Assembly (NCBI GenBank): GCA_009829735.1 | Contig: CM020620.1 | Location: 21,612,020 to 21,676,019, forward strand | Source: Pyropia yezoensis | Lineage: Eukaryota > Rhodophyta > Bangiophyceae > Bangiales > Bangiaceae | Direction: 5' to 3' | Length of the DNA stretch: 64,000 nt | Shown here: one piece after another, positions 23,542 to 56,266 of the stretch | Numbering within the stretch: position 1 is the first letter of the stretch | Layout of the letters: the number at the start of each line of letters is the position of its first letter | Made by a program: the position numbers and the translations under genes | The notes under the pieces: generated by a model | Told to the model about the DNA's origin: nothing | The model's database searches: none | Seen by the model: only the letters and a program-made list of their open reading frames with translations

Positions 23542-23613
23542 ACGCCGGTAGTGTAGTGGTAATCATCATCGCTTCCCATGCGATGGACCGGGGTTCGATT
23601 CCCCGCCGGCGTA
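23542..23613 (+). tRNA. tRNA-Gly (anticodon CCC), left copy
   Basis: 72 nt that fold as a cloverleaf. The acceptor stem pairs ACGCCGG with CCGGCGT, followed by discriminator A. The D arm contains AGTGTAGTGG (A box), the anticodon arm is ATCGC-TTCCCAT-GCGAT with anticodon CCC, and the T arm contains GGTTCGATTCC (B box). There is no intron and CCA is not encoded. Retroelement E1 starts directly after the last base. T-runs belonging to E1 follow 9 and 17 nt downstream and could end Pol III transcription. Confidence 0.93.
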
Positions 23614-23704
23614 GGGACTTGTTTTTGCGTTTTTTTGACTGTGGACGTGTGCGGGGGGCCGGGAGGCACCCCCTGACGGTCTTGGTTTGGTCTGCGGGGG
23701 CGGG
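23614..23704 (+). promoter_or_regulatory. E1 5' UTR with T-runs and a conserved hairpin
   Basis: T5 at 23622-23626 and T7 at 23630-23636 follow the tRNA and match Pol III terminators. Further on, GCGGGGGG-CCGGGAGGCA-CCCCCT can form a G:C stem. The related E2 element has the same arrangement (T4, T4, then GCGGGGG-CCGTGAGACA-CCCCCT). Conservation between otherwise diverged elements suggests a functional RNA structure such as a 5' processing or translation signal. Confidence 0.5.
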
Positions 23705-26700
23705 ATGGAGCCGGATCGGGACATAGTTGACCGGTTGGTGCGGGATGTCGACGCCGTGGTCGTGGGGATTCTCGGAACGGTTCCGAATAGTGATATTCGG
23801 GGCCGTTCCGATATTTTACGGGGGGTGTTGACGAGGGTCTGGGCCAATCAGATGACGGGATTGACCGAAATCCCTCACATTGGCCCAGATTCGCCTGTGC
23901 GTAACGGTTCTATGTTGCGTTCGTTGTGCGGCGGCGCTTGCACCCTGGGGGGGGGTGAAGCGCAGGTGTTTGGCGGCACCCCGGGGGCGAACCCGGGGTG
24001 CTCAAGTGACAGCGGTGGGTGCGTTGGCTTCGCCGCACCTTCCTCTTCGTTTTGTGGGGTCGCGGCCGCGGTGGGCGGCTCTGGTTCGGGCTCTGGGTCT
24101 GCGGTTGTGCCTTTGTGTCTGTCTGTCTCTGCTCCCCTTTCTTCTGTTCCCCCTGCCCCCCCCTCTTCCCCCTCTCTGGCGGTCCCTGCGCCTGTGGTGG
24201 CGTCTGGCGGTGCCCCTGCGGGGTCTGTGGGTGCGGTTGGCGGGGGGCTGGCGGCGGGCGGTGGCGGTGCTGGTGGCCTGTCTTCCCTCGGCCGCGGTGC
24301 TCCGGCGGTTGGCGTCGGCCCTTCCTCGGCGGTCGGTGCGCGTGCGGCGGTGGGCGGGGCGGTCTCTGGCGGGTCCTGCGCGTCCCCTGGCGGTGCTCGC
24401 GTGGGTGCTGCTGCTTGTGGGCCGGGGGGGGCTGCTGTGGGTGGTTCTTCCCTGGGGGGGGGTGTTGCTGCTGGTCCCTCTGGGGGTGCTGTTCGTGTTG
24501 CTGGTCGGGGCGGCGGCGGTGCGGCTGCTGTCTCCGGTGCGCCTGTTCTGGCGTCTGGGGGGGGGCCGACTGCTCCCCCCCGCGGTGCTGCTGGCGTCCT
24601 TTGTGCGGGTGGTGCGGCGGGGGGGGCTGCCGGAGGGGGTGGTGTTGCTGCTCCTGGTGGTGCTGGTGCGGCGGTCGGCCGTGGTGGCGGCGGTGCGGCT
24701 GGCTCTCCCTCGCTGTCGGGTGTCGCTGGTGGGGGGGGGGTGCTGACTGCCCCCCCTGGCGCAGATGTTGGCGGCCGTGGTGCGGGTGGTGCGGGGGGCG
24801 GTGCTGCTTGTTTGGGCGGCGGTGCGGGTGGTGCGGGGGGCGGTGCTGCTGGTTTGGGCGTCGGTGCGGGTGGGGGCTGCGTTGGTGCGGCTGTCGGTGC
24901 GGGCTCTGCCCCCGCCCCTGCCCATGACGGGTCTGCCCTGGTGGGGGGGGGGATGCTGCTGGACCCCCCCTGCCCTGCCAACTCTTCCGTCGGTGTCCGC
25001 GCCGGTGGGGGGGCGGTTGGCGCTGCCCCGGGTGCTGCTGTGGGGGCTGGTGGTGGTGCGGTTGGCGGCGGCGATGCTGCTGCGGCTGCCCCCTCCCCTG
25101 CCGGTGTTCTGCTGCCGGGGGGGGGAGCTGCCCCTCCTGGTGGGCCTGCTGGTGGCCGCGGTGCCGTTGCGGCGGCGGGGGCTCCTGCTGGCGGGCGTGT
25201 CGGTGCGGTCGGTGGTGCTGGTGGTGCGGCTGGTGGTGCTGGTCTGGCCCCCTCTGGCGCTCCTGGTGTGTGTGGTGGGGGGGGCCCTGTGGCGCCCTCT
25301 CTCCTTTTTCGCGGTGCGGTTTCGGGTGGTGCGGCTGTCTGCGGGGGGGGGGCAGCGACTGTCGCTGGGTCTGTTGGTGTGGTGGGCGCTGGTGGCGGTG
25401 CGGCTGGCGGCCGTGTCGCTGCGGCTGGGGCTCCCCCCTCACCCATGGACCTGACGGGCGGGGGGGGGGCGGCTGCCACCTCTTGCGGTGCTGGCCGTGG
25501 CCGTGGCCCTGTGGTGCCGCCTGTGGGCGGTGTGCGTCGGGGCGCCGGTGCGGCTGGCGGTGCTGGCGGCGTGGCTTCTGGCGGGGCGGTTTTTGCCCCT
25601 GGTGCTCGTGGTGCGGTCGTTCGGGGGGGGGCTGCTGGACCTGTGTCGCTGTTTGAACGTGCGGGGGGGGAGGACGCTGCTGTAGCTGGACTCGGTGGCT
25701 GTGTTCAAGGTGTGAGCTGTCCCGCCCACCACGGTGGCCGATGCCAGGGTGGGCGCGGTGTGGGGGGGGGGGGGGTAGCACGGGCTCCCGGGATGGGAGG
25801 CGGCGCCGCGCCCGGCGGCCCTCATTCCCTCCACGCTGGGGGGGATGGGGGTAGCTGGGTCGAGGTGGTGCGGCGCCGCACCCGGTCGCGCAGGGGGGCC
25901 GCTTCGGCCGCCACCCCTGCGCGGGACGACGATGGGGCTTCGGCCCCCGTCCCACCAGCCTACCGCCTGGCGTCACCCCCCTCTCCCACCCGCGCTCGAC
26001 GCCCTGAGGAAGCGGGTCCCTGCGTAGCTGCTCAAGGGTTTTCGGGCGCTGTGTCGCCGGCCCTCGTCGGCCGTGCGGGTGCGGTGCCTGTGTGTGGGGG
26101 GGCTGCTGGGGGTGCTGCGCGTGGGGTGAGAGGTGTGCGCGGGTCGGCCGGACGGGCTGTGCCGCTGAGTGGCGCGGCTGCGGGTGCGGGTGTTGTGGGT
26201 GCTGGTGTGGCTGCGCGGGTGGGCGGTGTGTGCGGCGGTCTGGCTGGCGCGCGCGGTGGCCGTGCTGGCGCACCGGCGGGGGTGTCGCGGGAGGGGGTGG
26301 GTGCTGTGTCACCCCCTACCGTCGACGCCGCCGCTCGCGTCGCCGCGGCTGCCGCGGAGCTGACGCGCTGCCGGCCGCGTCGGGCGGCGGTGACACCCCT
26401 GGAGACGGTGTATGTCTCCGGGGTGTCCCGCGACGCCCGTGCGCACCGTCTGCGAGCGGCGGTGGCCGACCTCACCGGGGTCGACGTTCGCCTGGTGGCG
26501 GACGTCGACCGCTTCGGCACTACTGCCGCGGTGACGGTGGTGGCCACCGCCGCGGACGCCCTGCGCGCCGCGGTGCGGTCCGGCCCCGCCGCGTCGGTGC
26601 TGCGCCTCCTCCCTGGCGCCGACCCGTGGAGCGCTAAGCTCCTCGGGTCGCGCCGCCGAGAGGGGCTGTCCGCGGCCGACGCGGCGGGTGTGGCGGCGGA

Positions 26701-28368
26701 CTTTTGCCGCCGCCGCCTCACCGCCAAGCTGGAGCAGCTGGCGGTGAGGTCGGCCATGCCCCCCCTCCTGCGTGCGTCGCTGCGCGCCCACATCGAGGGC
26801 GCGCTTGCGGCGCGCGGTGGGGGGGCACCCGCGCCTACGGTGGGGGCCACTGCGGCCCCCAGACTGCCACTGCTGGCGGCGGCGGCGACGGCCTCGTCGG
26901 CCGTCGCTGCGCCTGCTGCCGCCACGCCGTCGGGGGCTCGTGCGGCCCCCGACCTGCACCCTGGGAGGGTGCCAGCGGCTGCCCCACCGGCGGCCGCGGC
27001 ACCTGCTCCCCCCTCCGCGCCGGCGACGACGCCGGCGGCGGCCGCCGACGACGCGGCTGCGGTGGCCGCCTTTGCTGCTGCCCCGGCTACTGGGGCAGCA
27101 CCAGCGGCTGCCACCGCCGCCCGTCGTCGGCGTCGCCGCCGTCGCGCCGCCACCCGCGCTGCCCCCCTGACCGGTGGGTCTGGGGCGGCGGCACCCGTTG
27201 TGCCCACCCCTGCGGCGCCCGCCGCACCCCGTGTGCCCCCCGCCCAGCCGGACGGGGCCGAGGCACGGGTTGCGGTGGCTGCGTCGCCGGCTGCCACCCC
27301 CGCTGGTGCTGGCGGGGGTGCTGGCGAGGGGGACGGCCGCGGCGCCGACGGCGGTGGTGCGGCCGCGACGGCTGCCGCCTGTCCGCCGCCGGGGGGGGCT
27401 GCTGCACCTGCCCCAATGGATGGGGTGGTGCCAGCTGACTTCCCCGGCGGTGCCAGAGGTGCGACCGCGGCTGGCGCGGACCCGCCGCCGCCGGGGGATA
27501 CGGCCCCGCCGGCGGCTACGGCCGGCACTGTGCCTGCGCCCCCCGTGGCGTCCGACGACGCCATGGAGGGGGTGCAGCCTGCCGTGCCGGCCCCTACCGC
27601 CACGCCACTGGGCACGGCCGTGCCGGTGGTGGCGGAGGGTGGTGCTGGCGGCCCCTGTCGGGCTGCTCCTGCACCCCCTCCGCCCCGGCCGACGCCGATC
27701 CCTCCCCGCCTGGCCGCCGCCACCGCGGCGGCGGCGCGCACGCCGCTGCCGCCCGACACCACGCGAACGGCGCTGGTGACGCCCACCGCCACCGACCCGA
27801 CGCGGCCGGCGCGAAAGCGCCGGCGCACGGAGGCCGGGTCGGTGGCGGTGCTGCCGCCGCCTGCGCATCGCCGCGGGCGCGCGCGGCCGTTGCGGCCGGC
27901 TCTGCGGGGGGGATCGCGATCCCCTTCCGCGCCTGCGATGCCGCTTGCCGCTGTCGGCCGCCCTGTGGGCGCCGACAGCGAGATGTCGGCGCCCGCCCCG
28001 CCAACCGTAGCGACGGCGCCGTGGCCGACGGCGGCCCCCACGCTTCCCGCTGCCGCCCCCGCAGCCACGACTGCCGCGGACGGCGACGCCGCCTTGTCGG
28101 CAGCGTCGCCGCCCGTAGCGGCTGTGGCTGCGGCTGCGGCCGCGCCTCCTGCCGGCGCCGACGCTGCCACGCCTTGCGCCCCTCTCGCCGCACCGGCGGC
28201 GCCTGGGGCCGCCGCCACGCCCACCGCCGCCGCCGATCCGCCTGTTGCCCCCCCCCCACCGCCCCATCGTCGACAGATGGGGTGGAGGGGGCTGCGGCTA
28301 CGGCGGAGGGTGCGGCTGGCGGTGCGGCCGCCACCACCAACGCCAGCGACGGGTGTCACCATGAGTGA
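23705..28368 (+). CDS. E1 copy 1 ORF1, Ala/Gly-rich protein with an RRM-like domain
   Basis: Starts at the ATG at 23705 (MEPDRDIVDRLV); E2 has a similar start (MAGHRAHFVVLTKAVV). A Gly/Ala-rich segment runs to about 26300. A conserved domain at 26395-26800 reads TVYVSGVSRDARAHRLRAAV, then VRLVADVDRFG, then AAVTVVATAADALRAAV. Its beta-alpha-beta-beta-alpha pattern suggests an RRM-like RNA-binding fold, as found in ORF1 of many LINEs. E2 shares it (TIYVAGVSRDVRQHRLRGLL). A Pro/Ala-rich tail follows. The stop TGA at 28366-28368 overlaps the ORF2 start. A run of 10 C at 28248-28257 (11 in copy 2) puts the last 37 codons out of frame and fuses ORF1 to ORF2 here. Probable role: binding the element RNA. 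Confidence 0.7.
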
Positions 28369-31300
28369 CACCCGTCGCGGAGCCGCCGCTGGGCGCGACG
28401 AGGCCACTGCGGCCTCGCGCTCGGCGGCGGCGTCGGGTCCGACCTCCCGCTCGCCGCAGGGCGGCGGGCCGGACCCTGGCGGGCCCCCTGCCGTGCGGGG
28501 GGCCTCTTCCGCTCCCCCGGCGGCTGGTGTCGGGGGTGCTGTGGGGGGTGCCGTCGGCGGTGGCGCTGCTGCCACCGCCGTCCCGTGTCCCGTCCCCGGC
28601 TGCGGAGTTCTGCTGTCGGGGGGGGTGGGCGCACCTGCTGGGCTCCAGCACCTCCGGCAGGCGCACGTCGCCCCGGAGGTGCCGCCGGAGGTGCTGGCAG
28701 CCCTCGGCGCCGCCGGCTGCCGGTGGTGCGAGCGGCCGTTTCCGGCGTCTCGTGGCAGGAGGGGGAACTCCTCCCTGTCCTGCCACGAGACGCTCTGCCG
28801 GCTCAACCCCCGGCGACAGCGCGCCCGCCCCCCGTTGGCGACGGCGGCGCGGACCGTGCGCGCCCTGGGCGCGCCGCGGGCAGCGGCCCGGGCGACCACC
28901 ACGGCGGCGGCTGGCGGCGCGGAGGCGCAACCGGCGACGGCGGCGACGGCGGCGACGGCGGCGGCGTCGGCGACGGCGGACACGGCGGCGGCAACGGCGA
29001 CGGCGGTGACGGCGGCGGCAACGGCGACGGCGGCGACGGCGGCGGCAACGGCGACGGCGGCGACGGCGACGGCCGCGGCGGCGACGGCGGCGGCGACGGC
29101 TACGGCGGACGCTCTTCGCGCGGAGGCGGCGCCCGCGACGGCGCCGCCCGCGACCCTAGCGGCTGTGGGGGGCGGGCGCCCCGACGCCACGCTTTTTGCG
29201 GCGGACCACGCCGCATGGGCGCGGGCGCGCGGCGCATTTCTGCGCGCGTCCGCGCCCACCGACGCGGCGTGGCCGTCGCTGGTGGCGTCCGGCGCCCGCA
29301 CGTCGGTGCACGTGCCCGCGGCGCTGCTGGGCGCGTGGCGTCGGCTTTTCGCCGATGCCCTGGACTGGGTGTGGCGCGAGCCCACCCAGCGCCACGCCTG
29401 GCTCTGGCTGCTGCTTCTCCCGTCCCTCGCCCTCCACTCCCCCACGCCCGCGGTCCCTCAGCGCGCCGACGCGGACCCTACCGCAGCGCTGTCGCACGCT
29501 GCTCGTGCGACGGCGTTGCTGGACGGGGATTTCGCCGGCGCGCTGGGCGACCGCAACGCCGGCATCTGGCGGCCGCCGGTGGGGAGGGGGGCACGCCCAG
29601 CCGGGGCGGTGCGGGAGGGGGACGCACTCTCGCCTGCCCGCCCTGCGCGCCCCACCGCCGCGCAGCGCCGCGCACTGCGGCAGGTGCGGAGCGGCCGCCT
29701 GAGCGCGGCCGCCCGCTCCCTGCTTGCCGCGCCGGCGGCAGCAAAAACGCCGGCGGTGTGGGCCAAGGCCTGCCGCCTCTTCCCGCCGGCGGCGCCGGAG
29801 CTGACCGCTGCCGCGTCGGTGGCGGCCGCCTTTCCCGCCGAGCTGGTGGCGGCGGAGGCGGCCGCCACCGACGCGCCCGCACCCGCCACGCTGTCGCGCG
29901 CGGCGGTGGAGACGGCGATCCGCTCCGCCGCCGCCGGCAAGGCGCCGGGGCCGTCCGGCCTGAGGACGGAGCACCTCTGGGCCCTGGCGCCGGACGGCCA
30001 GGACGTCCTGGTCGAGGTGCTCCTCCTGCTGGCCGGCGACCACGCCGCAGTGCGCGTGCCCGCGGTGGCGGCCCGCGCGCTGGCGGGCGCCGACTTGGTC
30101 CTGCTGACCAAGTCGGGCGGCCTGCAGGCGGACGGGCTTCCCGGTCTCCGGCCGATAGGCATGCCGGAGACCCTGAGGAAGCTCGTCGCCTCTGCGCTGG
30201 CGCGCGCCGTGCGGGGGGCCGCGGCGGCGCTTTTTGCGCCGCTGCAGCAGGGGGTGGGGGTCTCCAGCGCGTGTGAGCGTATGCTTCACGAGCTGGAGGC
30301 CCACCTCGCCCTCCACCCCCGCCACGCCCTCCTCCAGCTGGACTACAAGAATGCATTCAATCTTGTGTCCCGGAGGGGGGCGTGGGCCGTCCTCTCCCGC
30401 GCCTTCCCCCTCCTCCGCCCATACCTGACGTGGGTATACGGGGGGGAGGAGGGGAAGGCCGCGCCGCCGGTCTACGGCTGGGCGCCTGGAGGCGCCGCCG
30501 ACGACCCGTGCGGCGCCCGCAGCGGTGGGGCCGCGCCCGGCGGCGGCGGCGGCCACGGCGACGGCGACGGCGGGCCCGCCGGGCCTGGGGGGGGTGTGTG
30601 TGGCGCGGGTGGGGGTGCGGCCTTGGCGGTGGCGGCGGCGTGCGGTGCGGGCGGCGGGGGTGGCGGCGACGGCTGTGCGTGCGGCGGCGGCCGCGGCGAG
30701 TGCGCCGGGCCCGCGCGGTGCGAGCGTGACGGCGACGACGCGGCGGCGCGGGCGGCTGGCGGCGACGGTGGGGGTGGCGGTACGGCGGGTGAGGAGAGCG
30801 ACGCCGGCCGGCGGGTGCCGGCCCCACCGCGGCGGCTGGTGCTGCGGGCCGAGAGGGGCGCCCAGCAGGGCGACCCCCTAGGCCCGCTGCTCCACGCCGC
30901 CGCGCTGTGGCTGGTGCTCCGCCGGCTGGAGGCGGAGCACCCCCGCCTCCTGGTGCGGGCCTTCCACGACGATGTCGTCGTGGTTGGCCCGCCCGCAGCG
31001 CTCCCCCCCGCCCTCGCCGATGCCGACCGGCTCGGCCGGTGCATCGACGCCCAGCTGGCGCCAGCCAAGTGTGTCGGCTGGTCGCCAGCTGGGCTGCCGG
31101 CGCCGGAGGGGTGGCCGGCCACGTGGGCGCCCGCGGGGGTGACGCAGTTCTCCGTCCCCCTCGGCAGCGACGCCCACGTGGCCGCGGGGGTGGACGCCCT
31201 TGCGGAGGAGCAAGGGCGTCTGAGCGCCGCCATTGCGGCGCTCCCCCCCGCGGAGCTACAGGCGCAGCTTTTGCTGCTGCGCCTGTGCTCCGGCCCCCGG

Positions 31301-33335
31301 CCCAACTACTGGCTGCGCGCGCTCCCCCTGCAGTGGGGAGCGCGCCTTGCCGCCGCCGTCGACCGCGACGCGCGTGCGGCGGTGCTGTCCGTGCTGTGTG
31401 ACGCACGCGACGGCACCGCCACGCGCGACGCGGTCGGCGACCGCGCAGCGCTCCCCCCCGCGATGGGGGGGCTGGGAATCGGGGGGCGGGCGCGTGTGCT
31501 GCCGGCGGCGGCGCTGGCGTCGTGGGTCGACGCCCTGCGCGCCGGCGCCGCCTACTCCCCCGCCCTAGCGGCCATCCGGGACCGTCTGGAGGCGGTCCCG
31601 GTGGCGGCTGCCGACGGCGGCGTTGTGCCGCCGCCGCCGCGCCCCCACCCGCGCCCCCCACCCCCTGTGCCACCTTCGCGGCCCCGCCCGCGCCCTCCAC
31701 CCCCTGGGCCGTCCCGCCCGACCCCGCGGCGTGCTGGCCCTGCGGCTGGGGGGGTGCAGAAGCGGCGCCCCGCCGCGCGGCCTACGCGCGGCCGAGGGGG
31801 GGGCTTTTCGGGGGTCGACACTTGTTCGACCCCCCTGCCCGCCCCCCCCCTCGCCAACCGCCGACTCCCGCGTCCCCCCCGCGCGCCGCCACGCCCCCTG
31901 CCTCCTCCACGCCGTCGCCGTCTGTTGCCGCCGGCCCGCGTCCGGCCGCGGCGGGCGTCGCTGCGCCTACCGCCGCCTACGCCCTGTGGCGCCCACGGCG
32001 GCCGCGGCGCCCTGCCCGCGCACGGGGTGGGTGACGGGGGGGCCCGACGGGGAGGGACGTCGAGTTCCACTTCGTCACCCCCTCGCCCCCCCCTCCCCTC
32101 TCGACCCCCCCGCCCCTGGTGGGCGGGGCGCCGCGGCCGTGCACGGCCGAGGCCGCCAGCCTGTGCGCGGGCCTGCTGGAGCTGCTTGCAGCCCAGCAGG
32201 CCCACTGCACCGCCCCAGACCGTGGGCTGCTGTGGGTGCGGCGCCGCCCCGCGGCGCCTGCGCGCCCTCGCGGCCGCCCCGACCCGCTGGCTCCCCCCCC
32301 CTCGTCCTTCCCGCCCCCCGCCCGTGCCCCCCCCCCCCCTGCCCCCTCGTGCGGCGCCGGGACCATCCCTGGTACCCTGGCCGACGGCCTACCCGGCCCG
32401 GCGCCGCACACGCCACTGTCGTGGCGGGGTCTTCTGGGGGGGAGGAGGTGCAGGCCAGCCAGCGGGACTTCTCCCTCCCGGCGCACGCCGCCGCCCGCGC
32501 GCGCATCTACGCCGAGCTATCGCTCTGGCAGCGCGCGGGCCCTGGCGGCGTGCCAGGGGCACGGCGCCGCCGCCTGGCTGTCCGCGCTGCCCTCCCCCGG
32601 GGTTGGCGGCGCTGCCATCCCGGGGGTGGCGATGCGCACGGCGGTGCGGCTGTGGCTGGGCGTGGCGCCGCGGTCGGTGCCGCCGGCCGCCCGCTGCCGC
32701 TGCGGCGCGGCGGCTGACGCCGCCGGGCGCCACTTTCTGGCGGCCTGCCCGGAGCAGCGCCCCCGCCACGCACGGCTGCACCACCATGTGGTGCACCTGG
32801 TGGCTGAGGCGCTGCGCCGGGCAGAGGGGTGGGGGAGGTGGCGGTGGAGGTGGGGCTCGACACCGCCCCTGCCTCCCTCCGCCCTGACTTCCGCGCCACC
32901 AGGGAGGGGACGGGGGAGGTGACCTGGGCGGACGTGTCCGTCGCCTCCCCCTTCTCCTCCCTGCTGGCTCCAATGGCGGCAGATGCCCCATTGGAGCCGG
33001 TGGCTGCCGCGACGCGGGAGGGTGACAAGGTGCGTCGATACGCCCGCGCCCTCCCCGTCGGCCCGCCCTCCCACACCTTCACCCCGCTGGTGTGGGAGGT
33101 TTACGGGCGGCTGGGGCCTGCCTCCGCCGCCTGGCTGCGGGAGGCACTGGGCGGCCCCCGACTTGCCACGGCGCGGGCACGACTCCTCACTGCCATTTCG
33201 GTGGCACTGTGGAAGTCGAACGCCCGCGCCGTGGCGGATGGGTACGCTCGGTGTTTTGGGGTGGAGGACCCAATTGGGGGTGGAATTGTGGGTCCGTTGG
33301 GTAGTTCTCGAAGTGTGGCCCGAATTGGTGATTAG
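28361..33335 (+). pseudogene. E1 copy 1 ORF2 (RT and restriction-like endonuclease), frame-broken
   Basis: The same protein as the copy 2 ORF2. Zinc fingers (CPVPGC...HLRQAH and CRWC...CHETLC) at about 28580-28800, reverse transcriptase at about 29900-31080 with FHDDVVVVG at about 30961, and the endonuclease core RPDF...WADVSV at about 32880-32945. RT and endonuclease are not in one frame: the frame changes in G/C runs between about 31790 and 32830, several times in this copy. Since copy 2 has fewer breaks and differs mainly in homopolymer lengths, sequencing error is the likely cause; true decay remains possible. Confidence 0.75.
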
Positions 33336-33403
33336 GGGGAGTAGCCCCCCTCAGGTAGTTTTAGTCGGGAGGAGTGGATCCTCAGTAGCAAAGAGGAAAC
33401 AAT
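33336..33403 (+). other. E1 copy 1 3' UTR
   Basis: About 67 nt after the ORF2 stop, with the hairpin GGGGG-AGTA-GCCCCCC and the terminal words GGATCCTCAGTAGC and AGAGGAAACAA. It matches copy 2 and runs up to the N gap, where the tRNA 3' half would be expected. Confidence 0.6.
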
Positions 33404-33903
33404 NNNNNNNNNNNNNNNNNNNNNNNNNNNNNNNNNNNNNNNNNNNNNNNNNNNNNNNNNNNNNNNNNNNNNNNNNNNNNNNNNNNNNNNNNNNNNNNNN
33501 NNNNNNNNNNNNNNNNNNNNNNNNNNNNNNNNNNNNNNNNNNNNNNNNNNNNNNNNNNNNNNNNNNNNNNNNNNNNNNNNNNNNNNNNNNNNNNNNNNNN
33601 NNNNNNNNNNNNNNNNNNNNNNNNNNNNNNNNNNNNNNNNNNNNNNNNNNNNNNNNNNNNNNNNNNNNNNNNNNNNNNNNNNNNNNNNNNNNNNNNNNNN
33701 NNNNNNNNNNNNNNNNNNNNNNNNNNNNNNNNNNNNNNNNNNNNNNNNNNNNNNNNNNNNNNNNNNNNNNNNNNNNNNNNNNNNNNNNNNNNNNNNNNNN
33801 NNNNNNNNNNNNNNNNNNNNNNNNNNNNNNNNNNNNNNNNNNNNNNNNNNNNNNNNNNNNNNNNNNNNNNNNNNNNNNNNNNNNNNNNNNNNNNNNNNNN
33901 NNN
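33404..33903. other. Assembly gap of exactly 500 N
   Basis: The left side ends exactly at an E1 3' end. The right side resumes inside E1 ORF1 at a point equivalent to 25656. A tandem arrangement would need about 2.07 kb here (tRNA 3' half plus the first 2 kb of E1), so 500 is a placeholder and not a measured size. Confidence 0.95.
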
Positions 33904-36614
33904 AACGTGCGGGGGGGGAGGACGCTGCTGGTAGCTGGACTCGGTGGCTGTGTTCAAGGTGTGAGCTGTCCCGCCCACCACGGTGGCCGATGCCAGGGTG
34001 GGCGCGGTGTGGGGGGGGGGGGTAGCACGGGCTCCCGGGATGGGAGGCGGCGCCGCGCCCGGCGGCCCTCATTCCCTCCACGCTGGGGGGATGGGGTAGC
34101 TGGGTCGAGGGTGGTGCGGCGCCGCACCCGGTCGCGCAGGGGGGGCCGCTTCGGCCGCCACCCCGCGCGGGACGACGATGGGGCTTCGGCCCCCGTCCCA
34201 CCAGCCTACCGCCTGGCGTCACCCCCCTCTCCCACCGCGCTCGACGCCCTGAGGAAGCGGGTCCCTGCGTGGCTGCTCAAGGGTTTCGGGCGCTGTGTCG
34301 CCGGCCCTCGTCGGCCGTGCGGGTGCGGTGCCTGTGTGTGGGGGGGCTGCTGGGGGTGCTGCGCGTGGGGTGAGAGGTGTGCGCGGGTCGGCCGGACGGG
34401 CTGTGCCGCTGAGTGGCGCGGCTGCGGGTGCGGGTGTTGTGGGTGCTGGTGTGGCTGCGCGCGGGTGGCGGTGTGTGCGGCGGTCTGGCTGGCGCGCGCG
34501 GTGGCCGTGCTGGCGCACCGGGCGGGGGTGTCGCGGGAGGGGGTGGGTGCTGTGTCACCCCTACCGTCGACGCCGCCGCTCGCGTCGCCGCGGCTGCCGC
34601 GGAGCTGACGCGCTGCCGGCCGCGTCGGGCGGCGGTGACACCCCTGGAGACGGTGTATGTCTCCGGGGTGTCCCGCGACGCCCGTGCGCACCGTCTGCGA
34701 GCGGCGGTGGCCGACCTCACCGGGGTCGACGTTCGCCTGGTGGCGGACGTCGACCGCTTCGGCACTACTGCCGCGGTGACGGTGGTGGCCACCGCCGCGG
34801 ACGCCCTGCGCGCCGCGGTGCGGTCCGGCCCCGCCGCGTCGGTGCTGCGCCTCCTCCCTGGCGCCGACCCGTGGAGCGCTAAGCTCCTCGGGTCGCGCCG
34901 CCGAGAGGGGCTGTCCGCGGCCGACGCGGCGGGTGTGGCGGCGGACTTTTGCCGCCGCCGCCTCACCGCCAAGCTGGAGCAGCTGGCGGTGAGGTCGGCC
35001 ATGCCCCCCCTCCTGCGTGCGTCGCTGCGCGCCCACATCGAGGGCGCGCTTGCGGCGCGCGGTGGGGGGGCACCCGCGCCTACGGTGGGGGCCACTGCGG
35101 CCCCCAGACTGCCACTGCTGGCGGCGGCGGCGACGGCCTCGTCGGCCGTCGCTGCGCCTGCTGCCGCCACGCCGTCGGGGGCTCGTGCGGCCCCCGACCT
35201 GCACCCTGGGAGGGTGCCAGCGGCTGCCCCACCGGCGGCCGCGGCACCTGCTCCCCCCTCCGCGCCGGCGACGACGCCGGCGGCGGCCGCCGACGACGCG
35301 GCTGCGGTGGCCGCCTTTGCTGCTGCCCCGGCTACTGGGGCAGCACCAGCGGCTGCCACCGCCGCCCGTCGTCGGCGTCGCCGCCGTCGCGCCGCCACCC
35401 GCGCTGCCCCCCTGACCGGTGGGTCTGGGGCGGCGGCACCCGTTGTGCCCACCCCTGCGGCGCCCGCCGCACCCCGTGTGCCCCCCGCCCAGCCGGACGG
35501 GGCCGAGGCACGGGTTGCGGTGGCTGCGTCGCCGGCTGCCACCCCCGCTGGTGCTGGCGGGGGTGCTGGCGAGGGGGACGGCCGCGGCGCCGACGGCGGT
35601 GGTGCGGCCGCGACGGCTGCCGCCTGTCCGCCGCCGGGGGGGGCTGCTGCACCTGCCCCAATGGATGGGGTGGTGCCAGCTGACTTCCCCGGCGGTGCCA
35701 GAGGTGCGACCGCGGCTGGCGCGGACCCGCCGCCGCCGGGGGATACGGCCCCGCCGGCGGCTACGGCCGGCACTGTGCCTGCGCCCCCCGTGGCGTCCGA
35801 CGACGCCATGGAGGGGGTGCAGCCTGCCGTGCCGGCCCCTACCGCCACGCCACTGGGCACGGCCGTGCCGGTGGTGGCGGAGGGTGGTGCTGGCGGCCCC
35901 TGTCGGGCTGCTCCTGCACCCCCTCCGCCCCGGCCGACGCCGATCCCTCCCCGCCTGGCCGCCGCCACCGCGGCGGCGGCGCGCACGCCGCTGCCGCCCG
36001 ACACCACGCGAACGGCGCTGGTGACGCCCACCGCCACCGACCCGACGCGGCCGGCGCGAAAGCGCCGGCGCACGGAGGCCGGGTCGGTGGCGGTGCTGCC
36101 GCCGCCTGCGCATCGCCGCGGGCGCGCGCGGCCGTTGCGGCCGGCTCTGCGGGGGGGATCGCGATCCCCTTCCGCGCCTGCGATGCCGCTTGCCGCTGTC
36201 GGCCGCCCTGTGGGCGCCGACAGCGAGATGTCGGCGCCCGCCCCGCCAACCGTAGCGACGGCGCCGTGGCCGACGGCGGCCCCCACGCTTCCCGCTGCCG
36301 CCCCCGCAGCCACGACTGCCGCGGACGGCGACGCCGCCTTGTCGGCAGCGTCGCCGCCCGTAGCGGCTGTGGCTGCGGCTGCGGCCGCGCCTCCTGCCGG
36401 CGCCGACGCTGCCACGCCTTGCGCCCCTCTCGCCGCACCGGCGGCGCCTGGGGCCGCCGCCACGCCCACCGCCGCCGCCGATCCGCCTGTTGCCCCCCCC
36501 CCCACCGCCCCATCGTCGACAGATGGGGTGGAGGGGGCTGCGGCTACGGCGGAGGGTGCGGCTGGCGGTGCGGCCGCCACCACCAACGCCAGCGACGGGT
36601 GTCACCATGAGTGA
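33904..36614 (+). CDS. E1 copy 2 ORF1, partial (5' end in gap)
   Basis: In the frame open from 34413 the RRM-like domain (TVYVSGVSRDARAHRL at about 34650) runs through the Ala/Pro-rich tail to DGCHHE and the TGA at 36612-36614. This is the frame expected from E2, whose ORF1 ends DGRHNE. Unlike copy 1, the C-run at 36493-36503 has 11 C and leaves ORF1 and ORF2 as separate overlapping frames. Upstream of 34413 the frame is disturbed by G-run differences near the gap. The N-terminus is missing. Confidence 0.65.
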
Positions 36615-39600
36615 CACCCGTCGCGGAGCCGCCGCTGGGCGCGACGAGGCCACTGCGGCCTCGCGCTCGGCGGCGGCGTCGGGTCCGACCTCCCGCTCGC
36701 CGCAGGGCGGCGGGCCGGACCCTGGCGGGCCCCCTGCCGTGCGGGGGGCCTCTTCCGCTCCCCCGGCGGCTGGTGTCGGGGGTGCTGTGGGGGGTGCCGT
36801 CGGCGGTGGCGCTGCTGCCACCGCCGTCCCGTGTCCCGTCCCCGGCTGCGGAGTTCTGCTGTCGGGGGGGGTGGGCGCACCTGCTGGGCTCCAGCACCTC
36901 CGGCAGGCGCACGTCGCCCCGGAGGTGCCGCCGGAGGTGCTGGCAGCCCTCGGCGCCGCCGGCTGCCGGTGGTGCGAGCGGCCGTTTCCGGCGTCTCGTG
37001 GCAGGAGGGGGAACTCCTCCCTGTCCTGCCACGAGACGCTCTGCCGGCTCAACCCCCGGCGACAGCGCGCCCGCCCCCCGTTGGCGACGGCGGCGCGGAC
37101 CGTGCGCGCCCTGGGCGCGCCGCGGGCAGCGGCCCGGGCGACCACCACGGCGGCGGCTGGCGGCGCGGAGGCGCAACCGGCGACGGCGGCGACGGCGGCG
37201 ACGGCGGCGGCGTCGGCGACGGCGGACACGGCGGCGGCAACGGCGACGGCGGTGACGGCGGCGGCAACGGCGACGGCGGCGACGGCGGCGGCAACGGCGA
37301 CGGCGGCGACGGCGACGGCCGCGGCGGCGACGGCGGCGGCGACGGCTACGGCGGACGCTCTTCGCGCGGAGGCGGCGCCCGCGACGGCGCCGCCCGCGAC
37401 CCTAGCGGCTGTGGGGGGCGGGCGCCCCGACGCCACGCTTTTTGCGGCGGACCACGCCGCATGGGCGCGGGCGCGCGGCGCATTTCTGCGCGCGTCCGCG
37501 CCCACCGACGCGGCGTGGCCGTCGCTGGTGGCGTCCGGCGCCCGCACGTCGGTGCACGTGCCCGCGGCGCTGCTGGGCGCGTGGCGTCGGCTTTTCGCCG
37601 ATGCCCTGGACTGGGTGTGGCGCGAGCCCACCCAGCGCCACGCCTGGCTCTGGCTGCTGCTTCTCCCGTCCCTCGCCCTCCACTCCCCCACGCCCGCGGT
37701 CCCTCAGCGCGCCGACGCGGACCCTACCGCAGCGCTGTCGCACGCTGCTCGTGCGACGGCGTTGCTGGACGGGGATTTCGCCGGCGCGCTGGGCGACCGC
37801 AACGCCGGCATCTGGCGGCCGCCGGTGGGGAGGGGGGCACGCCCAGCCGGGGCGGTGCGGGAGGGGGACGCACTCTCGCCTGCCCGCCCTGCGCGCCCCA
37901 CCGCCGCGCAGCGCCGCGCACTGCGGCAGGTGCGGAGCGGCCGCCTGAGCGCGGCCGCCCGCTCCCTGCTTGCCGCGCCGGCGGCAGCAAAAACGCCGGC
38001 GGTGTGGGCCAAGGCCTGCCGCCTCTTCCCGCCGGCGGCGCCGGAGCTGACCGCTGCCGCGTCGGTGGCGGCCGCCTTTCCCGCCGAGCTGGTGGCGGCG
38101 GAGGCGGCCGCCACCGACGCGCCCGCACCCGCCACGCTGTCGCGCGCGGCGGTGGAGACGGCGATCCGCTCCGCCGCCGCCGGCAAGGCGCCGGGGCCGT
38201 CCGGCCTGAGGACGGAGCACCTCTGGGCCCTGGCGCCGGACGGCCAGGACGTCCTGGTCGAGGTGCTCCTCCTGCTGGCCGGCGACCACGCCGCAGTGCG
38301 CGTGCCCGCGGTGGCGGCCCGCGCGCTGGCGGGCGCCGACTTGGTCCTGCTGACCAAGTCGGGCGGCCTGCAGGCGGACGGGCTTCCCGGTCTCCGGCCG
38401 ATAGGCATGCCGGAGACCCTGAGGAAGCTCGTCGCCTCTGCGCTGGCGCGCGCCGTGCGGGGGGCCGCGGCGGCGCTTTTTGCGCCGCTGCAGCAGGGGG
38501 TGGGGGTCTCCAGCGCGTGTGAGCGTATGCTTCACGAGCTGGAGGCCCACCTCGCCCTCCACCCCCGCCACGCCCTCCTCCAGCTGGACTACAAGAATGC
38601 ATTCAATCTTGTGTCCCGGAGGGGGGCGTGGGCCGTCCTCTCCCGCGCCTTCCCCCTCCTCCGCCCATACCTGACGTGGGTATACGGGGGGGAGGAGGGG
38701 AAGGCCGCGCCGCCGGTCTACGGCTGGGCGCCTGGAGGCGCCGCCGACGACCCGTGCGGCGCCCGCAGCGGTGGGGCCGCGCCCGGCGGCGGCGGCGGCC
38801 ACGGCGACGGCGACGGCGGGCCCGCCGGGCCTGGGGGGGGTGTGTGTGGCGCGGGTGGGGGTGCGGCCTTGGCGGTGGCGGCGGCGTGCGGTGCGGGCGG
38901 CGGGGGTGGCGGCGACGGCTGTGCGTGCGGCGGCGGCCGCGGCGAGTGCGCCGGGCCCGCGCGGTGCGAGCGTGACGGCGACGACGCGGCGGCGCGGGCG
39001 GCTGGCGGCGACGGTGGGGGTGGCGGTACGGCGGGTGAGGAGAGCGACGCCGGCCGGCGGGTGCCGGCCCCACCGCGGCGGCTGGTGCTGCGGGCCGAGA
39101 GGGGCGCCCAGCAGGGCGACCCCCTAGGCCCGCTGCTCCACGCCGCCGCGCTGTGGCTGGTGCTCCGCCGGCTGGAGGCGGAGCACCCCCGCCTCCTGGT
39201 GCGGGCCTTCCACGACGATGTCGTCGTGGTTGGCCCGCCCGCAGCGCTCCCCCCCGCCCTCGCCGATGCCGACCGGCTCGGCCGGTGCATCGACGCCCAG
39301 CTGGCGCCAGCCAAGTGTGTCGGCTGGTCGCCAGCTGGGCTGCCGGCGCCGGAGGGGTGGCCGGCCACGTGGGCGCCCGCGGGGGTGACGCAGTTCTCCG
39401 TCCCCCTCGGCAGCGACGCCCACGTGGCCGCGGGGGTGGACGCCCTTGCGGAGGAGCAAGGGCGTCTGAGCGCCGCCATTGCGGCGCTCCCCCCCGCGGA
39501 GCTACAGGCGCAGCTTTTGCTGCTGCGCCTGTGCTCCGGCCCCCGGCCCAACTACTGGCTGCGCGCGCTCCCCCTGCAGTGGGGAGCGCGCCTTGCCGCC

Positions 39601-41581
39601 GCCGTCGACCGCGACGCGCGTGCGGCGGTGCTGTCCGTGCTGTGTGACGCACGCGACGGCACCGCCACGCGCGACGCGGTCGGCGACCGCGCAGCGCTCC
39701 CCCCCGCGATGGGGGGGCTGGGAATCGGGGGGCGGGCGCGTGTGCTGCCGGCGGCGGCGCTGGCGTCGTGGGTCGACGCCCTGCGCGCCGGCGCCGCCTA
39801 CTCCCCCGCCCTAGCGGCCATCCGGGACCGTCTGGAGGCGGTCCCGGTGGCGGCTGCCGACGGCGGCGTTGTGCCGCCGCCGCCGCGCCCCCACCCGCGC
39901 CCCCCACCCCCTGTGCCACCTTCGCGGCCCCGCCCGCGCCCTCCACCCCCTGGGCCGTCCCGCCCGACCCCGCGGCGTGCTGGCCCTGCGGCTGGGGGGG
40001 TGCAGAAGCGGCGCCCCGCCGCGCGGCCTACGCGCGGCCGAGGGGGGGGGCTTTTCGGGGGTCGACACTTGTTCGACCCCCCTGCCCGCCCCCCCCCTCG
40101 CCAACCGCCGACTCCCGCGTCCCCCCCGCGCGCCGCCACGCCCCCTGCCTCCTCCACGCCGTCGCCGTCTGTTGCCGCCGGCCCGCGTCCGGCCGCGGCG
40201 GGCGTCGCTGCGCCTACCGCCGCCTACGCCCCTGTGGCGCCCACGGCGGCCGCGGCGCCCTGCCCGCGCACGGGGTGGGTGACGGGGGGGCCCGACGGGG
40301 AGGACGTCGAGTTCCACTTCGTCACCCCCTCGCCCCCCCCTCCCCTCTCGACCCCCCCGCCCCTGGTGGGCGGGGCGCCGCGGCCGTGCACGGCCGAGGC
40401 CGCCAGCCTGTGCGCGGGCCTGCTGGAGCTGCTTGCAGCCCAGCAGGCCCACTGCACCGCCCCAGACCGTGGGCTGCTGTGGGTGCGGCGCCGCCCCGCG
40501 GCGCCTGCGCGCCCTCGCGGCCGCCCCGACCCGCTGGCTCCCCCCCCTCGTCCTTCCCGCCCCCCGCCCGTGCCCCCCCCCCCCTGCCCCCTCGTGCGGC
40601 GCCGGGACCATCCCTGGTACCCTGGCCGACGGCCTACCCGGCCCGGCGCCGCACACGCCACTGTCGTGGCGGGGTCTTCTGGGGGGGGAGGAGGTGCAGG
40701 CCAGCCAGCGGGACTTCTCCCTCCCGGCGCACGCCGCCGCCCGCGCGCGCATCTACGCCGAGCTATCGCTCTGGCAGCGCGCGGGCCTGGCGGCGTGCCA
40801 GGGGCACGGCGCCGCCGCCTGGCTGTCCGCGCTGCCCTCCCCCGGGGTTGGCGGCGCTGCCATCCCGGGGGTGGCGATGCGCACGGCGGTGCGGCTGTGG
40901 CTGGGCGTGGCGCCGCGGTCGGTGCCGCCGGCCGCCCGCTGCCGCTGCGGCGCGGCGGCTGACGCCGCCGGGCGCCACTTTCTGGCGGCCTGCCCGGAGC
41001 AGCGCCCCCGCCACGCACGGCTGCACCACCATGTGGTGCACCTGGTGGCTGAGGCGCTGCGCCGGGCAGAGGGGTGGGGGGAGGTGGCGGTGGAGGTGGG
41101 GCTCGACACCGCCCCTGCCTCCCTCCGCCCTGACTTCCGCGCCACCAGGGAGGGGACGGGGGAGGTGACCTGGGCGGACGTGTCCGTCGCCTCCCCCTTC
41201 TCCTCCCTGCTGGCTCCAATGGCGGCAGATGCCCCATTGGAGCCGGTGGCTGCCGCGACGCGGGAGGGTGACAAGGTGCGTCGATACGCCCGCGCCCTCC
41301 CCGTCGGCCCGCCCTCCCACACCTTCACCCCGCTGGTGTGGGAGGTTTACGGGCGGCTGGGGCCTGCCTCCGCCGCCTGGCTGCGGGAGGCACTGGGCGG
41401 CCCCCGACTTGCCACGGCGCGGGCACGACTCCTCACTGCCATTTCGGTGGCACTGTGGAAGTCGAACGCCCGCGCCGTGGCGGATGGGTACGCTCGGTGT
41501 TTTGGGGTGGAGGACCCAATTGGGGGTGGAATTGTGGGTCCGTTGGGTAGTTCTCGAAGTGTGGCCCGAATTGGTGATTAG
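36607..41581 (+). CDS. E1 copy 2 ORF2: zinc fingers, reverse transcriptase, restriction-like endonuclease
   Basis: Starts at the ATG in ATGAGTGA (MSDTRRGAAAG), overlapping the ORF1 stop by 8 nt. Residues about 75-95: C2H2 finger CPVPGC...HLRQAH; about 120-150: CRWC...CHETLC. Reverse transcriptase at about 515-900: GKAPGPSGLRTEHLW, GLRPIGMPETLRKL, LLQLDYKNAFNLVSRRG, AERGAQQGDPLGPLLHA and the catalytic box FHDDVVVVG (usually F/YADD). A Pro-rich linker follows, then a Cys/His cluster (CRCG...HFLAAC, near 40940) and the PD-(D/E)XK endonuclease: RPDF at 41126, WADVSV at 41171, DKVRRY at 41268. One frame change, in C-runs at about 40540-40585, separates RT from the nuclease part. The protein should nick the tRNA gene and prime reverse transcription of the element RNA there. 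Confidence 0.85.
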
Positions 41582-41648
41582 GGGGGAGTAGCCCCCCTCA
41601 GGTAGTTTTAGTCGGGAGGAGTGGATCCTCAGTAGCAAAGAGGAAACA
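41582..41648 (+). other. E1 3' UTR with hairpin
   Basis: 67 nt from the ORF2 stop to the junction with the tRNA. GGGGGGAGTAGCCCCCC forms a 6-bp stem with an AGTA loop close to the stop codon. There is no poly(A); the end is ...AGAGGAAACAA. In target-primed reverse transcription the 3' UTR is normally what the enzyme recognises, so this short structured tail is the likely recognition element. Confidence 0.55.
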
Positions 41649-41679
41649 ATGGACCGGGGTTCGATTCCCCGCCGGCGTA
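41649..41679 (+). pseudogene. tRNA-Gly 3' half (target-site duplication)
   Basis: ATGGACCGGGGTTCGATTCC and the following 11 bases repeat the last 31 nt of the tRNA at 23542-23613, from the end of the anticodon stem through the discriminator base. With four more shared bases (GGGA) the duplication is 35 bp. It lacks the D arm and anticodon and cannot be a tRNA. It marks where E1 was joined by its 3' end. Confidence 0.9.
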
Positions 41680-41769
41680 GGGATAGTTTTCGCGACTTTT
41701 CTGGCCGTGGGTGGGTGCGGGGGCCGTGAGACACCCCCTCATCGTTTTTGTTTGGTCCCGGGGGGTGGG

Positions 41770-44716
41770 ATGGCGGGGCATCGCGCCCATTTTGTTGTTT
41801 TGACGAAGGCGGTGGTGTCGGTGATGGACGCCTCGGGCGTAATCCCGACGACGGCGGCCCGGTTGGGGGTGCTGACAGCGATGTGCGCCGACCTCCGGGC
41901 CAATCAGGGCCCGGATTCGGCGCTGTCAGCTGATTCGGTCGCCCCCATCGCGGTTTTTGCTCCCCGTTCTTCGCCTTGCGCTTCGTTGCCCCGCCCCTTT
42001 GCGCCGGTTTGTCCCTTTCCGGCGCCCTTGGCGGCGGGGACTGGCGCCGCGGGGGCCGAGGCGGGCACTGGCGAGTCCGCCTCGGCCCCCTCTATCCGAG
42101 GAGGTGCTTTGTCCCGCCCGGGGGCGACGAACCCGGGTGTGGGACGCCTTTTGGGGTTTCCCTGCCCCCCCCCTCTGCTCCCCTTTGCCCCCCTGCTCCT
42201 GTGGCGGCTGCCCCCGCCACCGAGGCGGCCGGGGGCGGCGCTGGGGGTTTCCTGGGGGCTGGTGGGCTGCCTCTCCCCGGCGGTGGGGGTGCTGCTGTGG
42301 CTGTGGGGGGGCTGTTGCCCCGGCCGTGGCCGGCCGCGGCGGAGCGGGTCTCGGTGGCGGTGTTCAAGGTGGACCTGCCGGTGCTGGTGCGGCGGCTGGG
42401 GCGGGCCGTGGGGGAGCGGGTCTCGGTGGCGGCGGACAAGGTGAACGTGTGCGTGCTGGTGCGGCGGCTGGTGCTGGCCGTGGGGGGGCGGGTCTCGGTG
42501 GCAGCGACCAAGGCGGAGCCGGTCAAGGTGTTGGTGGGGTCCGGGGCGACCCGGACGGCGCTCGGCGGGCGAGGGGCGGTGTGCGTGGGGGTGCTGCGGG
42601 TGGTGCCTGGGGTGCGGCGGGTGGCCGTGCTGGCGCCACCCCCTTGCCGCCCCGAGTGACCCCTCGCTGGCCGCCCCGCTCGCACATGGGGCGGCCGCCG
42701 CCGGGGGGGCGACGGGCGGCTGGGTGCAGGTGGTGCGGCGCGGCCGCCGTCGCCGCCGCGCCCAGACCGCCCCCTCCCCTACCCCCTTTGCGGGGGACGG
42801 CCCAGGCGGGGCGGCGACGACGACGGCGGTGCGTGTCGGCCTGGCCGCCGGCGCTGGCCGTGCCGCGGTGCGCGCGGCGACCGCGCTGCCGCGCGGCGCC
42901 GCCGCCGCGCTGGTAGGGGGGGTGCCTCCGGGGGGTGCTGCTGGGGGGGGTCGTGGGGTTGTGGGGCAGCGGGATGCCGCCACGCCCCCCCCCCCCCCGA
43001 CCCGTTTGAGTTCTGCTGGGGCCCTCCCCCTCCCCTCGGCGGCCGCCACGGCCGCGGAGCGTGCTGCGGCCGCCGGCGGCAGAGCTGGGTCGGGTCCGCC
43101 CCCGCGCCGCCGACACCCCCGCCCTCACGACGATCTACGTCGCGGGGGTGTCGCGCGACGTCCGCCAGCACCGCCTGCGCGGGCTGCTGGCGGACGTCAC
43201 CGGCGTCCACGCCCACGCCGTCGTCGACGCCGACCGCTTTGGCGCCACCACCTCCGTGACGGTGGTGGCTGCAGAGGCCGACGCGTTTCGTGCGGCGGTG
43301 GGGAGGGGGCGCGCAGCCACTGTGCTGCTCCTCCTCCCCGACGCCGACCCGTGGGCGCCGGCGCTGCTGGGTGCCGCCCGCCGGCGCGGGCTGGGCGACG
43401 CGGCGGCCGCCGCGGCGGCGGAGGCTTTTTGCTGCCGCCGCCTCGAGGCCAAGCTGGCCCAGCTGCCGGCGCGCGCGGCCATGCCTCCCCACCTGCGTGC
43501 GGCCCTGCATGCCCACATTCAGGGCATGCTGGCGTCGCACGCCGGCGGGGAGGCGGCCACCGCCGCGCCGCCTGGCGCCACGCCACGGCTGGAGGGGTCC
43601 CGCAGCCGGCGCGCGCCCCGCCGCGCTGCTGCCGCGGCGCCGCCGCTGGGGGCCGCGACGACGACGGCGCTGCCGGCCACCGCCACGCCTGTCCCCCCCC
43701 CGGCTGAGGCCGCGGCGCCCACCCCGGCGGCTGCTGCTGGGGTGGTGGCGGCCGCCCCGCCCAGTGAGGGCAGCGCCTCCGCGCGCGGCCACGCGCCCCA
43801 TGCGCCTGCCCCCCCCCTCTCCGACCCCCCGCGGGCCGTGTCGGCGCGCGCCGCCGCCGTGGCTGTCCCCACCCCCCCGCCATCGGCTAATGCCATGGAG
43901 GGGGTGGTGCCTGCCGTGGCGGCGGCCACGGGCGAGCGGCCAGCTGCCGCCGCGCCGCCGGGGGGGGAGCCTGGCGGGACGGCTGCCGCTGTGCCTGGCC
44001 CCGTCCCCCTGCCGCCCCTCCCCGCGCCGATCCCCCCCGTTCTCGCCGCCGCCACGGCGGTGGCGGCGCGGGCCTCGCTGCCGCCGACGGCTGGCCCCGC
44101 CGAGGCCCCGCGGCGGGCGGCACCAGCGACGGGGGCCACCCCCGACGCGCAGGCGCCGGCGCGCAAGCGCCGGCGCACTGCGAGGGGTGCTGTGGCCGGG
44201 GGGTCGCCGCGCGCCCCTCGCCGCGGGTGGGCGCGCCCTGTGCGGGCTGGCGGCAGCGGCGTGCGGCCGCTGCCGCCCATGGGCACCACGGGGGCCCGCC
44301 CGGGTGCTGACCGCGTGGCCACCAAGCCGTGGCCCTCCCTGCCGCCCGACGGGGACGCGTCGCCCGCGCGTGCGCCCACCCCCGCCGACGACGCCGCCGT
44401 CGACTCGGCGGCGACGCCTCGTCCCGCCGTTCCGCCGCCCACCGCCGGCTCGTCCGCGGCCGCGGTCGCCGCAGGGGCTTCCGCCCCCCCGGACGGCGAC
44501 CCCGCCCCGTCGGGGCCCAACCCCCTCTGGCCGGCCGACGCCCCCACGCCTCCGCCTGCCCCGCCCACGCCCCCCGCTGCTGCGGCACCCCCCGCCGCCG
44601 CCTCCCCCACGCCGCAGCCCATCGCTGCGGCTGGGGAGGCGACGGAGGAGGGTGACCCCGCCGCGGGCACGGCTGTGCCCACTCCCAACGTCAGCGACGG
44701 GCGTCACAATGAGTGA
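41770..44716 (+). pseudogene. E2 left ORF1 (frame-broken)
   Basis: From the ATG at 41770 (MAGHRAHFVVLTKAVV) the frame is disturbed at a run of 7 G near 42303; the right arm has 8 G and reads on to a stop equivalent to 42657-42659. Within 42340-42550 are about two and a half 72-bp repeats encoding a 24-residue unit with RVSVA...KV...VLVRRL...AVG. The RRM-like domain TIYVAGVSRDVRQHRLRGLL lies at about 43130-43380 in another frame, which runs on to GRHNE and the TGA at 44714-44716. The break between the two halves is present in both arms, so E2 ORF1 is either dead or two separate proteins. Confidence 0.6.
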
Positions 44717-46236: not shown

Positions 46237-46238
46237 CC

Positions 46239-46520
46239 GCTGCTCCCCCCACCCCCCCCGCTGTCGGCCATGATGCCGGGGGGGGGCAGCTTCGCCAATG
46301 GCCCAATGGTGGCTGGCTATGGCGCCCCAGCCGGTGCCGCCGCCGCCGCCGCCGCCGCCGCCACCCCCAGGATGACGGGCCGTCGCTCGCTGGCCGCAAG
46401 CACCCCCGTCACTGCGCCAGGCCGGCGGTATGGGGGGGACGGCGACGGGGGTGGCGGCGCCGTGCCGGGCACCCCCCCCACCGCCGCGCATCGTCGTGGC
46501 GGCAGCAGCGTCAGCCGAGG
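46239..46520 (+). other. Possible host-gene fragment rich in Gly, Pro and Ala
   Basis: The plus frame open from 46075 continues as SAMMPGGGSFANGPMVAG then an Ala-run and TPRMTGRRSLAASTPV. The composition is like that of intrinsically disordered host proteins, with no domain. It is cut by the 116-bp repeats that follow. Confidence 0.3.
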
Positions 46521-56176: not shown

Positions 56177-56266
56177 CCCACCCCCCGGGACCAAACAAAA
56201 ACGATGAGGGGGTGTCTCACGGCCCCCGCACCCACCCACGGCCAGAAAAGTCGCGAAAACTATCCC

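Follow-up and report, generated by a model that had tools for sequence, protein, structure and literature searches.

A putative tRNA-Gly(CCC)-specific RLE non-LTR retrotransposon and related families at other RNA genes in Pyropia yezoensis

Target-specific retrotransposons at RNA genes

RLE-bearing non-LTR retrotransposons include several that are specific for tRNA genes. Among those related to NeSL, NeSL-1_TV is directed to tRNA-Pro, LIN15_SM to tRNA-Arg and LIN25_SM to tRNA-Glu (PMC4640811). A sequence-only reading of the DNA considered here had given rRNA, spliced-leader and U2 genes as the typical targets of site-specific RLE elements, to which these published tRNA-specific elements are to be added. 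In Dictyostelium, the non-LTR element TRE5-A is also tied to tRNA genes (PMC5391098).

The element described below, termed E1, lies in a stretch of 64,000 nucleotides from the red alga Pyropia yezoensis (the window, meaning the whole stretch analysed), directly behind a complete tRNA-Gly(CCC) gene. With a probability of about 0.8, judged from DNA sequence, E1 is a recently active, target-specific RLE non-LTR retrotransposon; this estimate covers its identity, target and anatomy jointly with target-primed reverse transcription.

Layout of E1 in the window

The E1 region consists of the following features, in order of position.

23542..23613, plus strand: complete tRNA-Gly(CCC), the E1 target, directly upstream of E1 (Rfam RF00005, 58.5 bits)
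23614..33402, plus strand: E1 copy a (E1a), 5' to 3' end, stopping at an assembly gap
23622..23636, plus strand: T-runs T5 and T7, within the first 23 nt of E1
23639..32884, plus strand: stop-to-stop open frame of E1a, 3082 codons, first in-frame ATG at 23705
28586..28798, plus strand: zinc-finger-like region, CxxxxC..HxxxxH then CxxC..HxxxxC (position from tblastn; zinc finger assigned by eye)
29939..31093, plus strand: reverse transcriptase (RT) core of E1a, with the motifs DYKNAFN, GAQQGDPLGP and FHDD
30416-30832, plus strand: insert rich in Gly, ~139 aa long, separating two RT motifs of E1a
32551..33332, plus strand: region of the E1a RLE domain, its frame interrupted by indels
33364..33385, plus strand: 3'-terminal hairpin GAGGA-GTGGA-TCCTC of E1a
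33404..33903, no strand: assembly gap, 500 N
33904..41648, plus strand: E1 copy b (E1b), 99.7% identical to E1a, without the first 2 kb
40796-41578, plus strand: RLE of E1b, in a single open frame
41649..41679, plus strand: 3' part of tRNA-Gly (last 31 nt of the tRNA), between E1b and E2

Both junctions that had been read from the sequence are borne out. The tRNA, which ARAGORN places at 23541-23614, ends at 23613 by the Rfam match and E1 begins on the next base; at the other end, E1 stops at 41648 and is fused to the 3' part of the tRNA. The last base of E1a has a 1-nt ambiguity with the tRNA part. The T5 and T7 runs are a possible Pol III terminator for a rebuilt tRNA.

The same reading had treated 23542..41679 as one 18-kb element. 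Its junctions and domains stand, but the single unit is ruled out by the 500-N gap and by the 99.7% repeat between E1a and E1b, which matches E1a from E1a base 2043 onward. Given the gap, and given that a gapless copy elsewhere (copy C, below) measures only 9.2 kb, the window may hold one or two copies of E1.

Protein domains and class of E1

The N-terminal half of the 3082-codon frame is rich in Gly and Ala. At the C-terminus of E1, a CCHC knuckle is followed by a PD-(D/E)XK-like core with its catalytic lysine in a helix (KX2KY), and this C-terminal domain folds like the R2 endonuclease. E1 thus encodes both of the domains claimed for it, RT and RLE, the latter in a broken frame in E1a and in an open one in E1b. 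Pfam returned only RVT_1 for the 3082-aa frame, as a weak match (E 0.0025) below cut-off. No Ulp1-like protease was matched by Pfam in this frame, and some members of the NeSL clade do without one (PMC4640811). Protein relatives of E1 occur in Pyropia vietnamensis and Porphyra umbilicalis, and a Gly-rich stretch similar to that of E1 is seen in relatives such as P0005.

The affinity of the RT was assessed with profiles searched against PDB, where the R2 structures available for comparison are 9nl3, 9nl2, 9dou, 8gh6 and 8ibw. The widest profile, A3 (34 rows, with RT columns taken from relatives in the wider protein family), matched R2 at 2.8e-37 (131.6 bits), LINE-1 ORF2 at 2.4e-13 (52.4 bits) and retron-type/group II RT at 3.8e-06. 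A nearer profile, A2, gave 58.7 bits for R2 against 11.8 for LINE-1. With profile A1, R2 scored 34.3 bits and LINE-1 was absent among matches at E up to 1. A single relative used alone as query gave no RT match. By these scores, the RT of E1 is nearer to RLE elements than to APE elements. An APE-type LINE, a placement that would have contradicted the original reading, is ruled out by the scores together with the R2-like endonuclease domain. A clade for E1 within the RLE elements is at present a putative assignment.

An HDV-like ribozyme at the 5' end was also looked for: Rfam gave no match in the window, nor at five 5'-end loci at E up to 5, a search that diverged ribozymes may escape.

E1 copies and target specificity

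The genome searched totals 107.5 Mb, and three of its 11 contigs are large. A pattern for the tRNA-Gly(CCC) core, allowing up to 2 mismatches, finds six genes, all of them complete. E1 follows four of them (in the window and at C3:1.597M, C1:38.737M and C1:12.934M), whose flanks differ from one to the next; a fifth is followed by E2, and the gene at C3:28.072M is free of both. All four E1 5' ends found lie directly after a complete tRNA-Gly(CCC). The tRNA 3' part borders four of the five 3' ends found, and an N gap cuts off the fifth. None of these ends borders unrelated sequence. Chance junctions are ruled out, as both junctions recur at three places outside the window with different flanks. 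In addition, a diverged fragment at C2:12.579M (92%) begins inside the element and has no visible ends.

As far as these ends go, E1 appears to insert only at tRNA-Gly(CCC). The proposal of a family specific for this gene therefore holds for the E1 ends found; it needs correction in that further families, with targets of their own, exist beside E1.

The copies differ mostly by indels. In the best pieces compared with E1a, copy A has 1 mismatch in 11.3 kb, copy C has 5 in 9.2 kb and copy B has 16 in 10 kb; two more pieces of copy B show 5 mismatches over 3.7 kb and 12 over 3.5 kb. So few mismatches suggest that E1 moved recently. Copy C is gapless and holds RT and RLE in one open stretch of 1655 codons. 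Frames are broken by indels in several copies, no fully coding copy is demonstrated in this assembly, and the breaks may be sequencing errors.

E2 and the second tRNA-Gly(CCC)

The window contains a second, diverged element, E2, in two stretches, with a second complete tRNA-Gly(CCC).

41680..46244, plus strand: E2 copy a, 5' end present
44933-45145, plus strand: zinc-finger region of E2 copy a
51703..56266, minus strand: E2 copy b, 99.8% identical to E2 copy a and in inverted orientation
56267..56338, minus strand: second complete tRNA-Gly(CCC), with E2 copy b starting right after it (Rfam 58.5 bits)

E2 had been placed at the same position of this second gene as E1 at the first, and it does start directly after it on the minus strand. 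Neither E2 stretch has an RT match; only the zinc-finger region is recognised. The last ~640 nt of E2 copy a do not resemble E1 and could be flanking sequence. In the whole window the tRNA-Gly 3' core is present three times, never behind E2, and E2 is therefore probably a remnant. The 5' flanks of the two tRNA-Gly genes are 95% alike, which makes an inverted duplication likely. The order of tRNA, E1, tRNA part and E2 fits an insertion of E1 into a gene that E2 had left complete.

Other repeats are present in the window. An exact tandem repeat with a period of ~116-117 bp lies just past the E2 arm (46521-46869), a tandem array with a period of ~72/144 bp lies inside long open frames on both strands (61251-63337), and a direct repeat of 391 bp, 99.7% identical, occupies 1-391 and 1385-1775.

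Related families with other targets

Searches with the E1 3' end and RT identified four related families in the same genome.

fam2: target tRNA-Ile(AAT), C1:7559431; ~31 nt of the gene 3' part after the element
fam3: target tRNA-Asp(GTC); ~75-80 nt of the gene 3' part, including a T-arm intron
fam4: target U6 snRNA, C2:30352624, with an array behind; 35 nt of the gene 3' part
fam5: inside a dispersed repeat matched at at least 40 places; 3' junction only

The 3' end of E1 is 68-82% identical in DNA to those of fam2, fam3 and fam4, and RT protein identity is mostly 60-79%. In the tRNA-Gly, tRNA-Ile, tRNA-Asp and U6 families, the element begins directly after the 3' end of the gene, and its own 3' end is followed by 31 to about 80 nt of the gene 3' part. 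Nested and tandem copies are present, and the first copy has a complete gene upstream of it. For fam5, two of six places that were cut out carry the element and the other four are the same repeat without it.

Two short features recur at the element ends. A T-run of at least TTTT is found in the first 20 nt in 5/5 cases (E1, E2, fam2, fam3 and fam4) against 0-10% of 20-nt element windows. The five families in this comparison share ancestry, and for fam2, fam3 and fam4 it draws on small backgrounds of 253 to 1386 windows. In the U6 family, the first T8 may be the terminator of the gene itself, and the 5' T-run of the element could end Pol III transcription of the RNA gene. At the other end, the 3' hairpin is common to all five families with mapped 3' ends (E1 and fam2-fam5). 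Its five pairs are kept in 11/11 distinct sequences, with changes from A-U to G-C and from G-U to A-U, though this is supportive only, because the search patterns fixed part of the sequence. Among 14 loci of other RT relatives, the hairpin is present in five (fam5) and was not recognised in nine (L039, L040, L045-L051).

An rDNA target was considered for a fam2 copy at C3:10.526M that lies beside LSU rRNA, and was rejected, since a tRNA-Ile 3' part that includes the intron forms its 3' flank and the target is hence read as tRNA-Ile. At C3:10.525-10.526M (L028, L066) the fam2 3' end runs into this intron-bearing 3' part, next to sequence that resembles LSU rRNA (394 bits); no 5' end was found for the copy. 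A second mobile-looking sequence lies close to fam3 and fam4 5' ends (L031, L036, L096), and C1:20125394-20134226 holds tandem 1207-bp repeats, each of which includes a broken fragment of a related RT. Searches of the open-licence PMC literature gave no report of these families; subscription papers and Repbase, which lay mostly outside that scope, may describe them.

Intron markers of the gene 3' part

In the red alga Cyanidioschyzon merolae, tRNA genes are documented with introns at unusual positions and with a stretch of T that is their probable terminator (PMC3978253). In P. yezoensis, tRNA-Asp and tRNA-Ile genes have T-arm introns of 12-15 nt (L087-L095, L067, L068); ARAGORN, which has no model for a T-arm intron, missed most tRNA-Asp genes and the intron-bearing tRNA-Ile genes. 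Two more element-free tRNA-Asp-like genes, L094 and L095, have no T-arm intron and resemble a form of tRNA-Asp with a D-arm insertion in its place.

Such introns can mark where a gene 3' part came from, as plain target-site duplication predicts the same intron on both sides of an element. In the tRNA-Asp family, all 15 element 5' ends read (from 23 of 24 matching places) follow one 15-nt intron type. They include four complete upstream genes at the 5' ends of arrays, with three distinct flanks, two of the genes sharing one; array copies may be homogenised, so that the 15 junctions are not independent. The genomic 3' flanks read (n=3) all carry other intron types, of 12-13 nt. At one of them, C2:23.174M, the intron and the bases downstream are identical to two element-free genes 22-27 kb away; the 5' end of this copy was not found within the 800 bp read. 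Both ends could be compared in two arrays, read at their ends.

In the tRNA-Ile family, the intron is lacking from 11/11 exact tRNA 3' parts that stand before an element 5' end, and a twelfth, variant part (L029) lacks it too. The intron is present in the single genomic 3' flank read (n=1, C3:10.526M) and in two element-free genes (C3:25.20M). This contrast comes from a single complete gene and a single 3' flank, together with the two empty genes, which are an inverted pair and have the same flanks. At C3:12.728M (L097, C3:12728501-12728820) a U6-family element is preceded by ~55 nt of U6 3' part, and no U6 5' half can be recognised there.

The difference between 5' and 3' introns makes the tRNA-Asp 3' part beside the element look carried in, not simply duplicated. 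Carriage of the gene 3' part with the element RNA, taken as a step of its own, is thus regarded as probable from these markers. For E1 itself, carriage and duplication look the same because all of its tRNA-Gly(CCC) parts are identical.

Proposed mechanism and alternatives

The following route would account for these structures. The element protein would nick the antisense strand inside the RNA gene, and the element RNA would be copied by target-primed reverse transcription starting from its 3' hairpin end. Because of the intron markers and the U6 junction at C3:12.728M, the mobile RNA is proposed to start inside the RNA gene, carrying the tRNA or U6 3' part of the donor gene. Reverse transcription would then run through the 5' end of the element RNA into this carried part, and the 5' junction would form when the end of the new DNA strand pairs with the upstream half of the target gene, which it matches. 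A 5' junction formed by such pairing has been shown for R2 templates carrying upstream rRNA (PMC11331408). The upstream gene would be rebuilt as a hybrid, with its 5' part from the target and its 3' part from the donor, and the T-run of the element may end its Pol III transcription, if the rebuilt gene is expressed. Since the rebuilt gene would remain a target, serial insertion would make head-to-tail arrays.

A wider proposal, offered tentatively and at somewhat less than even odds, joins these points. In red algae of the Bangiales, RLE retrotransposons may have radiated so that they divide the Pol III genes of a single genome among them, each family with a mobile RNA that would start in the target gene, carry the gene 3' part and a Pol III terminator, and rebuild a working hybrid gene. 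The carried tRNA-Ile part would have lost its T-arm intron as if spliced by host tRNA splicing before reverse transcription.

Plain target-site duplication, with staggered cuts 31-80 bp apart in the RNA gene that are filled in while nothing is carried, would leave the identity and target of E1 unchanged and alter only the 5' step. The E1, E2 and U6-family junctions fit it equally well, and duplications of 20 bp are known within the RLE group from the Utopia families of reptiles (PMC4640811). It has more difficulty with the tRNA-Asp arrays, as both of those with both ends read have different introns upstream and in the 3' flank, and the introns shared among upstream junctions would have to be ascribed to later gene conversion between arrays. 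The U6-family element at C3:12.728M, which lacks a recognisable U6 5' half, also speaks against it. Duplication is therefore considered the less likely account, though the strongest of the alternatives.

The exact junction at tRNA genes could instead be set by host tRNase Z, if this enzyme cut a read-through transcript after the discriminator base and so made the 5' end of the element RNA. Elements at three tRNA targets do start exactly after that base, and the failure of Rfam to match an HDV-like ribozyme agrees with such processing. A carried tRNA-Asp intron, however, needs an RNA from which the tRNA 3' part has not been removed, and the U6 family is not known to have a tRNase Z site. This explanation is improbable. 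Far less probable still is an artefact of assembly or recombination in which collapsed repeats joined tRNA-Gly genes to one element. An N gap does lie inside the element region at three of the four E1 loci (W, A and B), and copy B has extra E1 pieces, but copy C is gapless, the four loci have different flanks and the related families have the same architecture.

Implications

If the carriage reading holds, the differing tRNA introns are sequence evidence for a target gene 3' part that travels with an element, and the 5'-junction step becomes testable in a natural system. The families also place related enzymes with different, precisely mapped DNA targets in one genome, a natural set for questions of how RLE elements change target. 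Selfish elements occupy five of the six genes for one tRNA and each gene is left complete, which shows a way for parasites to persist in essential genes with no obvious damage to them.

Comparison with known systems

Bacterial integrative elements and phages at tRNA 3' ends also carry the tRNA 3' end and restore the gene on insertion. They do so by DNA recombination with an integrase and not by reverse transcription, and the resemblance to the families described here is one of outcome only. Like TRE5-A, E1 is a non-LTR element tied to tRNA genes. TRE5-A has an APE-type endonuclease and inserts at a distance from the gene, whereas E1 lies at its exact end.

In contrast to R2, which inserts into 28S rDNA, E1 is found at tRNA-Gly(CCC) at 4/4 5' ends and 4/4 readable 3' ends. 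It also differs from R2 in its long Gly/Ala-rich N-terminal part, in the insert inside its RT and in having no Rfam match to an HDV-like ribozyme, with the reservation on diverged ribozymes given above. Utopia uses the gene of a spliceosomal RNA, U2 snRNA (PMC4640811), and is matched in this respect by fam4 with U6; U2 is not among the targets mapped here (tRNA-Gly, tRNA-Ile, tRNA-Asp, U6 and a dispersed repeat), and the target of E1 is a tRNA.

The closest counterparts are the tRNA-specific NeSL-related elements. The hosts and the tRNAs are different, as NeSL-1_TV is from Trichomonas and LIN15_SM and LIN25_SM are from planaria, and the accessible part of the source describes no carried gene 3' part, 5' T-run or U6 target for them (PMC4640811). 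E1 and its relatives have in common with these three elements that they are RLE non-LTR retrotransposons, that tRNA genes serve as targets, and that several targets are used within one related group.
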